64,000 bases of DNA, taken from NCBI RefSeq assembly GCF_003595525.1, contig NZ_CP022680.1, forward strand, positions 1,018,001-1,082,000, given 5' to 3'. Within the stretch, counting starts at the first letter, position 1, and the number at the start of each line of letters is the position of its first letter. The notes beneath the pieces are model-generated. The model had not been told where the DNA came from. It saw only the letters and a program-made list of their open reading frames with translations, and did not search any database. The DNA is from Streptococcus respiraculi. Lineage in GTDB: Bacteria; Bacillota; Bacilli; Lactobacillales; Streptococcaceae. Shown here piece after piece: positions 30,852 through 59,468 of the stretch. Made by a program: the position numbers and the translations under genes.

Positions 30852-31331
30852 AAACAGAGGCGCAGGTGTTCCAACTTTAGTTGGTTCCAGCTGAGGCTCC
30901 CTTTAGGGATAAACATTCCTAGAAGTTCTGCTTCTTCGTCATGTTTCCTAATTTTCATTCGCTTTTTAAACGCCCTCGTATCTTGCGTAATTGAATTCGG
31001 GCTAAGCACTGTGTGAAAAAGATAAATCTTCCTAGAGTTTTCTAACTCTTCGTCAGATTTCCTATTTTCACTGTGTGCTTTAAACGCTCTCGTATCTTGC
31101 GTAATTGAATTCGGGCTACAACTCGCTGACAAAAAGATAAATCTCCTTGGTTGCAAGGCAACCTGCTTCGATTTCCTATTTTGTCTAGGAGTTGTTTGAC
31201 GCCCTTGTATCTTGTGTAATTGAATTCGGGCTAAGCACTGTGTGAAAAAGATAAATCTTCCTAGAGTTTTCTAACTCTTCGTCAGATTTCCTATTTTCAC
31301 TGTGTGCTTTAAACGCTCTCATATCTTAATA
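30852..31331. repeat. Array of hairpin modules between atpG and atpD (order G'-H-J-H)
   Basis: A first partial module resembling the 52-bp repeat at 58629 (GTTCCAACTTTAGTTGG) runs into a G-type module to 31004; then H (31005-31118), J (31119-31233) and a second H (31234-31331). Modules are joined by a linker of the form CGCYCTCGTATCTTGYGTAA followed by TTGAATTCGGGCTA. Each module has nested paired arms that differ between module types but stay complementary. The last linker runs into the atpD ribosome binding site. No protein-coding gene is credible here. Confidence 0.88.
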
Positions 31332-31342
31332 AAGGAGAAAAA

Positions 31343-32749
31343 ATGAGTTCAGGCAAAATCACTCAGGTTGTTGGGCCGGTTGTCGATGTGGCATTTTCGG
31401 CTGATGATAAACTTCCTGAGATTAACAATGCACTTGTCGTTTATAAGAACGATGAATCAAAACAAAAAGTCGTGCTTGAAGTTGCTTTGGAGCTAGGAGA
31501 TGGTGTCGTTCGGACCATTGCTATGGAATCTACAGACGGCTTGACTCGTGGAATGGAAGTGTTAGACACTGGACGTCCGATTTCTGTCCCAGTTGGGAAA
31601 GAAACGCTCGGTCGTGTCTTCAATGTTCTAGGGGATACCATTGACTTGGAAACACCATTTGACGAGATGGTAGAACGCCAGCCGATTCATAAAAAAGCTC
31701 CTACCTTTGATGAATTGTCAACTGCGACAGAAATTTTAGAAACAGGAATTAAGGTTATTGACCTTTTAGCTCCCTATTTGAAAGGTGGGAAGGTCGGTCT
31801 CTTTGGTGGTGCCGGGGTTGGTAAAACAGTTCTTATCCAAGAATTGATTCACAATATCGCTCAAGAACACGGTGGTATTTCGGTGTTTACGGGTGTTGGA
31901 GAACGGACTCGTGAAGGAAATGACCTTTACTGGGAGATGAAAGAATCAGGTGTTATTGAAAAGACAGCCATGGTCTTTGGTCAGATGAATGAGCCGCCAG
32001 GAGCGCGGATGCGGGTTGCCTTGACTGGCTTGACCATTGCAGAATATTTCCGCGATGTTGAAGGTCAGGACGTGCTTCTATTTATCGATAACATCTTCCG
32101 TTTCACACAGGCTGGTTCAGAAGTTTCTGCTCTTTTGGGACGTATGCCGTCAGCCGTAGGATACCAACCAACGCTAGCAACTGAAATGGGACAATTACAA
32201 GAGCGGATTACGTCAACCAAGAAAGGTTCGGTAACCTCTATCCAAGCGATTTACGTCCCAGCCGATGACTATACAGACCCAGCACCAGCAACTGCCTTTG
32301 CGCATTTGGATTCGACAACCAACTTGGAGCGGAAATTAACTCAGTTGGGGATTTACCCAGCCGTTGATCCACTTGCTTCTAGCTCTCGTGCCCTTGCACC
32401 TGAAGTTGTTGGAGAAAAGCATTATGCAGTAGCGATGGAAGTAAAACGTGTCTTGCAACGCTACCAAGAATTGCAAGATATCATTGCCATCTTGGGAATG
32501 GATGAATTGTCTGATGATGAAAAGACCTTGGTGGGCCGTGCGCGTCGGATTCAATTCTTCTTGTCACAAAACTTCAATGTTGCTGAGCAATTCACTGGTA
32601 TGCCAGGTTCTTATGTACCTGTTGCAGAAACAGTACGTGGCTTTAAGGAAATCTTGGATGGTAAGCATGACAAGTTACCAGAAGATGCCTTCCGTAATGT
32701 TGGTTCCATTGATGATGTGATTGCTAAAGCAGCCAAAATGGGATTTTAG
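31343..32749 (+). CDS. atpD: ATP synthase F1 subunit beta
   Basis: 468 residues. Walker [10 protein letters not shown] near residue 154, catalytic glutamate in [13 protein letters not shown], Walker [12 protein letters not shown] and [15 protein letters not shown] are all intact. It holds the three catalytic sites. The AAAGGAG site seven bases before the ATG directly follows the end of the hairpin-module array, so translation of beta could be influenced by that structured leader. No separate promoter is clear before atpD. Confidence 0.97.
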
Positions 32750-32758
32750 AGGTGTTTT

Positions 32759-33175
32759 ATGGCACAAATGACCGTACAAATTGTAACGCCAGACGGTATT
32801 CGTTATGATCACCATGCGGCTTTCGTACTAGTTCGGACAACAGAAGGTGAGCTGGGAATTTATCCCGGTCACGTCGAGTTGATTGCCGTTTTGGCCATTG
32901 ATGAAATTAAGGTGCGTCGAATTGACGATGAAAATCACGTAGACTGGATTGCGGTCAATGGTGGGATTATTGAAATCTCTAAAGATTTGATTACCATTGT
33001 TTCAGATTCGGCAGAACGATCGCGTGATATTGATGTCAGTCGTGCGGAACGTGCGAAACTGCGTGCGGAAAAAGAGCTTGAAGAAGCACAAAGCGCCCAC
33101 AATATTGACATGGAAAAACGAGCAGCCATTGCCTTGCAACGGGCGATTAACCGTATCCGTGTTGGAAATAAATAA
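32759..33175 (+). CDS. atpC: ATP synthase F1 subunit epsilon
   Basis: 138 residues: N-terminal beta sandwich ([35 protein letters not shown]) and a C-terminal helical hairpin ([17 protein letters not shown]) that can inhibit rotation. Last gene of the operon. A MITE-like repeat begins at the base directly after its stop codon. Confidence 0.95.
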
Positions 33176-57829: not shown

Positions 57830-58581
57830 GGAAGATTCTGATAACAGGGGCTTCTGGTGGTCTAGTCCAAGCTATGGTGCCGCTTTTGGCGGATGATTTT
57901 CTGATTTTACTGGGGCGCGATAAGGCAAAAATGGAGCGCCTTTATGCCAGTCATGCCAACAAGTTGGTCTGTGATACGGATCTTCGGGATGAGGCTGCCT
58001 TGAAAGACTTGCTCAGTCAGCTAGAGGAACAAGTTGGGGGTATTGATATCTTGGTCAATAATGCAGGCTATGGTCGCTTTGCAGATTTTAAAGATTTTTC
58101 GAGTCGGGAAGTGCGGGAAATGTTTGAAATCAATACTTTCGCTCTGATGACCTTGTCCCGCTTGGTTGGTGAGCAGATGAAGCAGGCGCAAAAAGGTCAG
58201 ATTATCAATATCGTCAGCATGGCAGGGTTAATTGCTTCTAGCAAGTCCTCGGTCTATTCAGCGACCAAGTTTGCGGCCATTGGTTTTTCAAATGCCCTGC
58301 GTTTAGAGCTAGCGGCGTCTAATGTCGTGGTAACTACGGTCAATCCGGGACCAATTGCAACAACCTTCTTTGAACAGGCTGATCCAGAAGGAGCTTATTT
58401 GGAGTCAGTCAAGGCTTTCTTATTACAGCCTGATGAGGTAGCATGTAAGATTGTCGGAGTCATGGGGACCAAAAAGCGGGAATTGAGCCTCCCATGGACG
58501 TTGGCACTTGCCTATAAATGCTATACCTTGTTTCCGAATTTAGCAGATTTTCTCGCACGTACTGTTTTTAATTATAAATAA
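57826..58581 (+). CDS. Short-chain dehydrogenase/reductase
   Basis: 251 residues. Cofactor motif [12 protein letters not shown] (a variant of TGxxxGxG), structural NNAGYG, and catalytic serine and YSATK (S-Y-K triad: [20 protein letters not shown]). It probably uses NADP. It is the last gene of the tight miaA-hflX-rnz series; its substrate is unknown. In related streptococci recJ follows it directly, but here about 4.1 kb is interposed. Confidence 0.88.
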
Positions 58582-58628
58582 TCACCAGTATGGATGAATG
58601 GAAAATGAACTAAGAGCTATGTAAAAAA

Positions 58629-58784
58629 GGGACGCAGATGTTCCAACTTTAGTTGGTTACAACTGAGGCTCCCTTTAGTGGGGACGCAGATGTTCCAGTT
58701 TTAGCTGGTTACAGCAGAGGCTCCCTTTAGTGGGGACGCAGATGTTCCAGCTTTAGCTGGTTACAGCAGGGGCTCCTTTTAGGG
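58629..58784. repeat. Three tandem 52-bp hairpin repeats
   Basis: Units begin at 58629, 58681 and 58733 with GGGACGCAGATGTTCC and end GAGGCTCCCTTTAGTG. The central stem changes between units but stays paired: CCAAC/GTTGG, CCAGT/GCTGG (with a G-T pair), CCAGC/GCTGG. One related copy opens the atpG-atpD array. Confidence 0.85.
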
Positions 58785-59468
58785 ATAAGTCTTCCTATTT
58801 TGCTGTAGCTGTTACGAGCTTGCTCGTTTTACAGATACGGCTGCCCTAGGGGTATACTGTATGCTTTTAACGCCCTTGTATCTTGAGTAATTGAATTCGG
58901 GCTAAAAGCTCGGAAAATAGATAAACATTCCTAAAAGCTTTGCTTCTTCGTCATGTTTCCTAATTTTCATTCGCTTTTTTAACGCCCTCATATCTTATGA
59001 AACTGAACTCGAGCTAAGCACTGTGTGAAAAAGATAAGTCTTCCTAGAGTTTGCTTACTCTTCGTCAGACTTCCTATTTTCACTGTGTGCTTTTAACGCT
59101 CTCGTATCTTATGAAACTGAACTCGAGCTACAACTCACTGACAAAAAGATAAATCTCTTTGGTTGCAAGCCAACCTGCTTCGATCTCCTATTTTGTCTAG
59201 GAGTTGCTTAACGCTCTCGTATCTTATGAAACTGAACTCGAGCTACAACTCACTGACAAAAAGATAAATCTCTTTGGTTGCAAGCCAACCTGCTTCGATC
59301 TCCTATTTTGTCTAGGAGTTGCTTAACGCTCTCGTATCTTATGAAACTGAACTCGAGCTACAACTCACTGACAAAAAGATAAATCTCTTTGGTTGCAAGC
59401 CAACCTGCTTCGATTTCCTATTTTGTCTAGGAGTTGTTTAACGCTCTCGTATCTTATGAAAGGAGTTG
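58785..59468. repeat. Array of hairpin modules before cls (order X-G-H-J-J-J)
   Basis: An atypical module X (to 58904) with GAGC-TT-GCTC; G (58905-59016); H (59017-59130); and three J modules with 115-bp period (59131, 59246, 59361). The linker is CTCGTATCTTATGAAACTGA followed by ACTCGAGCTA (GTAATTGAATTCGGGCTA after X), the cls-side variant of the linker in the atp array. The array ends in the ribosome binding site of cls. A longer open frame into it from cls (from 59393) is not part of Cls. Confidence 0.88.

Follow-up and report, generated by a model that had tools for sequence, protein, structure and literature searches.

The 64,000-nucleotide (nt) stretch of the Streptococcus respiraculi genome analysed here (contig NZ_CP022680.1, positions 1,018,001 to 1,082,000; the window) carries two arrays of non-coding repeat modules, one before atpD and one before a cardiolipin-synthase-like gene (cls). 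The modules, of the types H, J and G, are one structured repeat family with a core of about 105 nt, and covariation supports selection on their structure. We consider it probable (roughly 0.6) that they descend from an old, non-autonomous hairpin which does not code for protein, is dispersed through the Streptococcaceae, is or once was mobile, and is tolerated in ribosome-binding sites by folding.

The core forms a rod of six helices (P0 to P5) with conserved internal loops. An alignment of 32 modules from the window genome and other Streptococcus genomes (A1), made with MAFFT and not fitted to a structure, yielded 24 predicted pairs, 20 of which show compensatory double changes. The covariance model R1 with 23 pairs was built from 32 modules and gave 153 matches over 68 sources; the best 150 of the 153 make up alignment A2 (130 distinct rows, 2865 cells). 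Here 95.8% of the cells are paired compared to 71.6% after shuffling, each of the 23 modelled pairs contains a double change and 726 cells carry one, versus 203.5 after shuffling. The covariation score is 0.606 against 0.170 for the shuffled alignment, none of 500 shuffles scored as high and slid structures reached only 0.068–0.105. Since R1 aligns its matches to the structure, this alignment is biased in favour of it, A1 being the unfitted comparison.

The helices P0 and P1 both lie outside R1 and covary as well. P1 (GGGC/GCCC and flips) was read as the 4-mer following GAnnnC, which is possible in 117 of the 130 rows, the motif dropping the other 13; in 99 of the 117 rows the tail contains its perfect complement, whereas 27.2 are expected with re-paired tails. 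Among others the types GGGC, GAGC, GGAC and GCCC occur with their complements. P0 pairs GAAC with GT-A-TC and leaves a bulged A. Out of 249 distinct sequences 224 were usable for a test of this helix and 25 were dropped. Position 3 against its partner gave counts of 181/4/8/30 (Fisher 1e-25, one other combination excluded) and position 4 gave 152/18/9/42 (Fisher 3e-22, three excluded), p-values which overstate the evidence because the rows are related. We judge the P0 covariation to be convincing because P0 switches between GAAC/GTATC, GAGC/GCATC, GAGT/ACATC and GAAT/ATATC across many loci.

An earlier note on the window had described modules of about 115 bp in two arrays and had argued from their paired arms for selection on structure. 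This description is borne out: the helix pairs quoted for H, J and G are present in the sequence, the copies in both arrays are spaced 112–115 nt apart in a direct-repeat search, and the covariation in A1, A2, P0 and P1 goes far beyond what eight modules give. The covariance model and genus search which the note proposed were run, and R1 matches 192 of 197 Streptococcus genomes. New beyond the note are P0 and P1, the nested sub-modules, the genus-wide spread and the insertions into ribosome-binding sites.

Array 1 occupies the gap between atpG (29953-30828) and atpD (31343-32749) and array 2 lies between a gene resembling short-chain dehydrogenases (57826-58581) and cls, whose ATG we place at 59471 by reading; the gene names are likewise by reading. 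Both arrays look like passengers, because each lies just upstream of an intact Shine–Dalgarno sequence. Their parts are as follows.

30857..30908, + strand: nested sub-module of 52 nt, GAGGCGCAGGTG...CCCTTTAGG, with which array 1 opens (read by eye)
30883..30984, + strand: first module of array 1, weak and composite, with a G-type 3′ half (R1 48 bits, E 1.2e-7)
30993..31098, + strand: module H of array 1 (R1 125.1 bits)
31107..31213, + strand: module J of array 1 (R1 80.1 bits)
31222..31327, + strand: second copy of module H in array 1 (R1 124 bits)
31328..31342, + strand: interval between the last module and the atpD start (31343), with its own Shine–Dalgarno sequence AAAGGAG and thus not a split site (read)
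58629..58784, + strand: 52-nt sub-module in three tandem copies ahead of array 2 (repeat family D4), a unit related to that at 30857-30908
58784..58884, + strand: degenerate module with another nested hairpin (GCTGTAGCTGTTACGAGC...), no R1 call (read)
58893..58996, + strand: module G of array 2 (R1 101.1 bits)
59005..59110, + strand: module H of array 2 (R1 121.9 bits)
59119..59225, + strand: module J of array 2 (R1 70.6 bits)
59234..59340, + strand: module J of array 2 (R1 70.6 bits)
59349..59455, + strand: module J of array 2 (R1 78.8 bits), followed by ATGAAAGGAG and the cls start

In the window copies and at the loci L032, L037, L039 and L042, module arms contain one or several tandem copies of the 52-nt sub-module (like GGGACGCAGATGTTCCAACTTTAGTTGGTTACAACTGAGGCTCCCTTTAG), whose mini-stem seems to covary. 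A further nested hairpin (like CCGTAGCTGTTACGAGCTTGCTCGTT..ACAGATACGGATGCCC) is seen in the 3′ half of modules at L031, L034, L041 and L183 and in the window at about 58805-58860.

Whether the structure is under constraint as RNA or as DNA can be approached through the wobble pairs. A scarcity of wobble pairs is telling because an RNA that works from one strand is expected to tolerate G·U. The numbers of G·T and A·C cells are 47 and 28 in A2, 26 and 33 in A3, and 13 and 12 in A4, the sets overlapping slightly; A4 holds the copies at ribosome-binding sites and is likewise poor in wobble pairs. As a control we used the thiamine pyrophosphate (TPP) riboswitch of the same genus (30 loci, 26 distinct, analysed with MAFFT and RNAalifold). 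Treated with one recipe, A1 gave 11 G·T to 15 A·C and the riboswitch 20 to 0 (Fisher p 1.7e-5), and in none of A1 to A4 is G-U tolerated far above A-C as in a riboswitch. With G·T and A·C similarly rare, we are left with a constraint on folded DNA, a function of both strands or a mutational rewriting of both arms. Taken together the pairs suggest a constraint on DNA or on both strands. The module family is also a covariation data set in which wobble use can separate DNA-level from RNA-level selection. We infer that the element would have spread, and would be checked, as folded DNA, because the pairs change on both sides, G·T intermediates are few and neither G·T nor A·C is clearly favoured over the other.

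Rewriting of both arms at once by template switching, with no selected function, would be the purely mutational account of the covariation. In A2 there are 717 double Watson–Crick changes and just 47 G·T cells, and such an excess of double changes over wobble steps is what templated repair of imperfect palindromes would leave behind. Template switching alone could thus make the double changes. However, the mismatched internal loops are kept and not healed, the AGA, CCTA and TTT columns being invariant, and the closing helix retains its bulged A. The conserved loops argue against this being the whole story, and we regard the explanation as rather improbable.

The host genome of both arrays (2.06 Mb) contains 69 R1 matches at E <= 0.01, which form 33 clusters or, under a second grouping, 34. 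Within Streptococcus a DNA search with one module found a match in 139 of 147 genomes. For the R1 count given above about 20 candidates per genome were scored, and copy numbers are therefore lower bounds. The five genomes without an R1 match are each of 1.6–1.7 Mb, and in G018, which belongs to these five, a smaller search scored a degenerate dnaJ copy at E 0.003 (L236). In a search across the Streptococcaceae 107 of 147 genomes matched, among them 15 from six other genera with weaker scores. Outside Streptococcus 24 loci from 5 of these 15 genomes were inspected by eye; most show the same fold, loops and ends (GAGTTC...CACATCTT), and two (L325, L338) gave no clean reading as a module. All covariation counts refer to Streptococcus copies alone. 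In the relatives from genus g8 (L317, L323, L332, L337 and others) we noticed TATAAT in the linkers, and for some units there the preceding unit contains, about 18 nt further upstream, a box similar to TTGACA, as if an outward promoter ended each unit.

A phage or plasmid origin was considered and dropped: the phage records gave no match to the one-module query, and the plasmid records gave none to a long query and one partial match to the one-module query, in the purD–purE gap of a record labelled S. agalactiae plasmid. A scan of viral contigs with AtpD gave no confirmed match.

The modules are found in either orientation, as single copies or as head-to-tail arrays, and often where genes border on each other; by reading, the arrays combine module types with common linkers. 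A crude open reading frame test, misled by false starts for a few copies (L188, L093), puts the right end (TATCTT) no more than 16 nt from a start codon or an opposite-strand stop codon in 18 of 34 clusters of the own genome and in 29 of 51 clusters from other species. Antisense copies beside stop codons account for 8/34 and 20/51, respectively, and the left end is within 16 nt of a same-strand stop codon in 6/34 and 3/51. The rpsH–rplF gap, compared at 61 loci, holds an antisense module, composites, remnants, a different structured repeat or nothing (as at L133, where the gap is 69 nt). A repeat that moves or recombines, and that is tolerated where genes meet, would be expected to show such a pattern. 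The second repeat in the rpsH–rplF gap of other species is about 110 nt long (TTAGCTCCCAATTTC...GAAATTGAAACCTAA), its arms seem to be complementary too, and it was seen at L120, L122, L124, L125, L128, L146, L148, L167 and others.

What might have moved the element was examined through its ends and its neighbours. Dispersed intergenic hairpins are also known as REP/RAYT and IS200/IS605-derived elements, and the earlier note had thought of a REP-like hairpin with a TnpA partner. The module is indeed a hairpin, intergenic and multi-copy, and TATCTT at its end is reverse-complementary to the conserved loop AAGATA. However, TATCAT ends occur with an unchanged loop, so that the loop as a guide for the end was given up; the own-genome clusters are split 17 to 17 between the strands; and of 98 Streptococcus genomes 62 gave a match to TnpA (PF01797) and 36 gave none, although modules are nearly universal. 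None of the 12 TnpA loci examined carries an R1 module. IS200-type TnpA is thus not linked to the modules and was rejected as their partner, and movement by a TnpA of the IS200/IS605 type appears highly improbable. REP sequences are described, in the available text of PMC3733652, as short palindromes of 20–40 bp moved by a TnpA-REP of the same genome; here we find neither this palindrome size nor such a partner, and the modules differ further in being several times longer (core about 105 bp) and in forming arrays of different modules.

A terminal inverted repeat AAGATAC...GTATCTT was considered as a universal end. The loose motif stands upstream of 33 of 145 first modules, and this repeat is therefore at most one of two closing modes. 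Several own-genome arrays share the ends TATAGTGGATTGA...CACTATA or TATAGTGGATTGAGAACTGAAC...CACTATA, and many other flanks read without them. The arrays at L032, L037, L039 and L042, and partly L036, have TATAGTGGATTGAGAACTGAAC at one end and a sequence like ...TTCAATTCACTATA at the other, a frame which we take to resemble IS630/RUP-type miniature inverted-repeat transposable elements. The modules at L046, L048, L050 and L077 sit within one group II intron lineage; the intron was rejected as a driver, the intron-borne copies being apparently passengers. At L048 the intron begins directly after a terminator-like hairpin, and the alignment at L046 is without the part with the reverse-transcriptase gene.

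We now turn to the copies at ribosome-binding sites. Nine own-genome clusters have their end at most 16 nt before a start codon that we take as real, a tenth (L188) being a false start. At atpD, a trkA-like gene and cls the Shine–Dalgarno sequence lies between the module and the AUG (for cls by reading, the automated call having used an earlier ATG). At rsmA, dnaK, dnaJ, carB, purB and a dihydrolipoyl acyltransferase gene (pdhC-like) none is found there; at these six sites the module ends 2–5 nt before the AUG and AAAGGA stands on its left, which at dnaJ means before the last module of a small array. The clearest split-site copies have the AUG 2–6 nt to the right of the element and the Shine–Dalgarno sequence AGAAAGGA to the left.

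We compared 80 orthologous upstream regions (13 carB, 12 uvrA, 18 dnaJ, 16 dnaK, 16 rsmA, 5 purB). An R1 module lies within 12 nt of the AUG in 26 of them (13 dnaJ, 7 carB, 5 uvrA, 1 purB, no dnaK or rsmA). A Shine–Dalgarno motif within 20 nt before the AUG is present in none of these 26 sites as opposed to 33 of the 54 others (Fisher 2e-8); without the rsmA regions the latter count becomes 30 of 38 (Fisher 4e-11). An AAAGGA-type motif is found within 45 nt to the left of the module at 23 of the 26 occupied sites, the exceptions being L208, L235 and L238. Eight sites other than rsmA have neither module nor motif. By reading, seven of them (three dnaK, carB L210 and L217, uvrA L225, dnaJ L231) contain, between the Shine–Dalgarno sequence and the AUG, another hairpin or a version with a swapped interior; the eighth, L215, gave no clear reading.

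At nine sites of the direct type the Shine–Dalgarno sequence lies 3 nt before the module, and closure of P0 is predicted to bring it to within 7–10 nt of the AUG. For 17 of 22 two-hairpin cases a possible closing outer helix gives 7–16 nt; such helices include GATACA/TGTATC, ATACAA/TTGTAT, AAAGGG/CCCTTT and AGAGGG/CCCTCT. At purE of S. agalactiae the annotated start follows directly after TATCTTAATATT, and AGAAAGGA ends 212 nt before it, the insert measuring 203 nt from GAAC to TATCTT. At dnaK of three species the ends of the element are kept and the interior is different (by reading). The energies of the segments from the Shine–Dalgarno sequence to the AUG lie below those of shuffled sequences, e.g., −36.7 versus −24.4.

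From this arrangement a mechanism may be sketched. The element would insert into the spacer of a ribosome-binding site, leaving the Shine–Dalgarno sequence on its left and the AUG on its right, and in the transcript the closing of P0, or of an outer helix (GATACA/TGTATC, for instance), would place the two about 7–16 nt apart. Since it folds, the element would be tolerated in transcripts as a closed rod. Tentatively, and at somewhat less than even odds, we propose that a mobile DNA hairpin inserts between Shine–Dalgarno sequence and AUG throughout the genus and survives there as its transcribed closing stem rejoins the two halves of the site. It would then be the counterpart, in translation initiation, of an intron that needs no splicing, whose interior could be replaced, as at dnaK, or grow to about 200 nt, as at purE, provided that the ends pair. 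If this is true, a ribosome-binding site can be interrupted by a small repeat and still work, several housekeeping genes throughout Streptococcus would not be fully described by Shine–Dalgarno models, and the tolerance of insertions at start sites would become a directly testable question.

Two further observations concern uvrA. In the tandem arrays before the gene (L059, L222, L223, L262) the linkers have their own AGAAAGGA, and Shine–Dalgarno sequence and module seem to have been duplicated jointly. At L225 (G018) a hairpin GTGCC-TTCG-GGCAC lies between AGGAGG and the AUG, 7 nt from the latter; it is a short split ribosome-binding site, apparently unrelated to the module.

Several results weigh against the hairpin as a mobile insert tolerated by folding. 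The comparison, which covered one genome per species, revealed no transposase, no duplicated target and no gain or loss between strains. Among clusters not picked by gene, split sites are a minority, with 6 of 34 own-genome clusters and, by reading, 2 of 51 in other species; in the latter a start codon lies within 24 nt in 18 of 51 clusters, a Shine–Dalgarno sequence lies in between in 13, and of the other five two are real (uvrA, dnaJ). None of the 16 rsmA orthologues is occupied, most of which show a weak Shine–Dalgarno-like sequence (motif in 3/16). Among the two-hairpin cases L230 and L235 give distances of 20 and 22 nt, L217, L238 and L240 have no closing helix, and taken singly three of the outer helices reach a shuffle P <= 0.05. 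In minimum free energy structures the unpaired path from Shine–Dalgarno sequence to AUG is short (median 9.5 nt), yet 0 of 40 beat dinucleotide shuffles at 0.05, because long RNA generally has near ends; fold-versus-shuffle tests alone are no proof that the ribosome-binding site is re-formed. The copies at ribosome-binding sites (A4) are also poor in wobble pairs, which is unexpected under RNA-level selection alone. Finally, GAAAGGA adjoins the AUG at none of the 54 unoccupied sites while the occupied sites carry a uniform (A)GAAAGGA on the left. The element may therefore have brought or selected its own Shine–Dalgarno sequence, which would alter the insertion account.

The same sites also invite a regulatory explanation, i.e., that the module is a cis-regulatory RNA, a temperature- or protein-sensing leader which opens and closes the split ribosome-binding site of the downstream gene. 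It adjoins the start codons of dnaK, dnaJ, uvrA, carB, purB and purE, recurs at orthologous sites and has conserved internal loops. In its favour count above all that dnaK and dnaJ are heat-shock genes and that GAAC has two alternative left partners, a small hairpin or P0. The occurrence in both orientations, with the antisense copies by stop codons counted above, the tandem arrays and the wobble-poor pairs speak against it; moreover the target genes are very different and the Shine–Dalgarno sequence is free at atpD and cls. We therefore regard a cis-regulatory role as unlikely.

In Rfam 15 no family reached its gathering threshold on the modules when the whole window was searched, and a search of 30800-31345 with E up to 10 gave two matches, both far below the gathering score; the Rfam comparison suggested by the earlier note thus provided no match for the modules. 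The sole match in the window is Srn266 (RF02822), a streptococcal small RNA at 17738-17848 on the − strand (105 bits). Among the literature matches listed (titles and abstract starts, mostly outside subscription journals) neither the family nor a split ribosome-binding site in streptococci is described, and the genus-wide family, its covariation and its seat at the ribosome-binding site were not met there. The part of a stem–loop survey available (PMC2267715) gives the families BOX, RUP and Stre-1 for S. pneumoniae and no cluster for S. pyogenes.

The nearest repeat family are the BOX-type elements. Both are small, interspersed, modular repeats of streptococci with tandem inner units, an intergenic position and a predicted fold. 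Compared by description only, the modules here differ in being nearly universal in the genus, in their strong core covariation and in splitting ribosome-binding sites. The accessible text of Croucher 2011 (PMC3049150) reports tandem BOX-type elements of S. suis with the modules boxA-F (boxE with a mean of 115 nt, boxF of 133 nt) and an E1B1F1 element inserted in a pseudogene. The modules could accordingly be such elements in a near relative, and those in the rest of the genus a diverged BOX superfamily; the framing of several own-genome arrays by TATAGTGGATTGAGAACTGAAC...CACTATA, reminiscent of composite repeats, fits with this. The same text has the pneumococcal repeats almost absent from other streptococci except for related elements in S. 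suis, whereas the present family is found in 192/197 genomes, and it describes neither a covarying S. suis core nor split ribosome-binding sites. The identity with BOX elements seems to us possible but doubtful, although boxA-F of S. suis may include copies like those of the window.

The tolerance of inserts by the translation machinery has a precedent in the mitochondria of Magnusiomyces capitatus, where many short bypassed inserts are described (PMC5009743, as far as its available text goes). Those inserts lie within coding sequence and are skipped in elongation, while the modules lie in the initiation region. Closer are genes 25 and 38 of phage T4, for which the accessible part of PMC3014915 reports that RNA structure restores the spacing of Shine–Dalgarno sequence and AUG, from 22 to 5 nt and from 27 to 11 nt. 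The working principle, a structure closing an over-long distance, is thus already established there. In both systems the Shine–Dalgarno sequence and the AUG are too distant in sequence with a structure between them, and the T4-type arrangement of no Shine–Dalgarno sequence near the AUG and one upstream of the intervening structure is what is found at 23 of the 26 occupied sites and at purE of S. agalactiae. T4 offers single genes with a non-repeat sequence of 22–27 nt, for which experiments have demonstrated the effect; the modules, known from their sequence, are a dispersed repeat of about 100–200 nt before several housekeeping genes across one genus.

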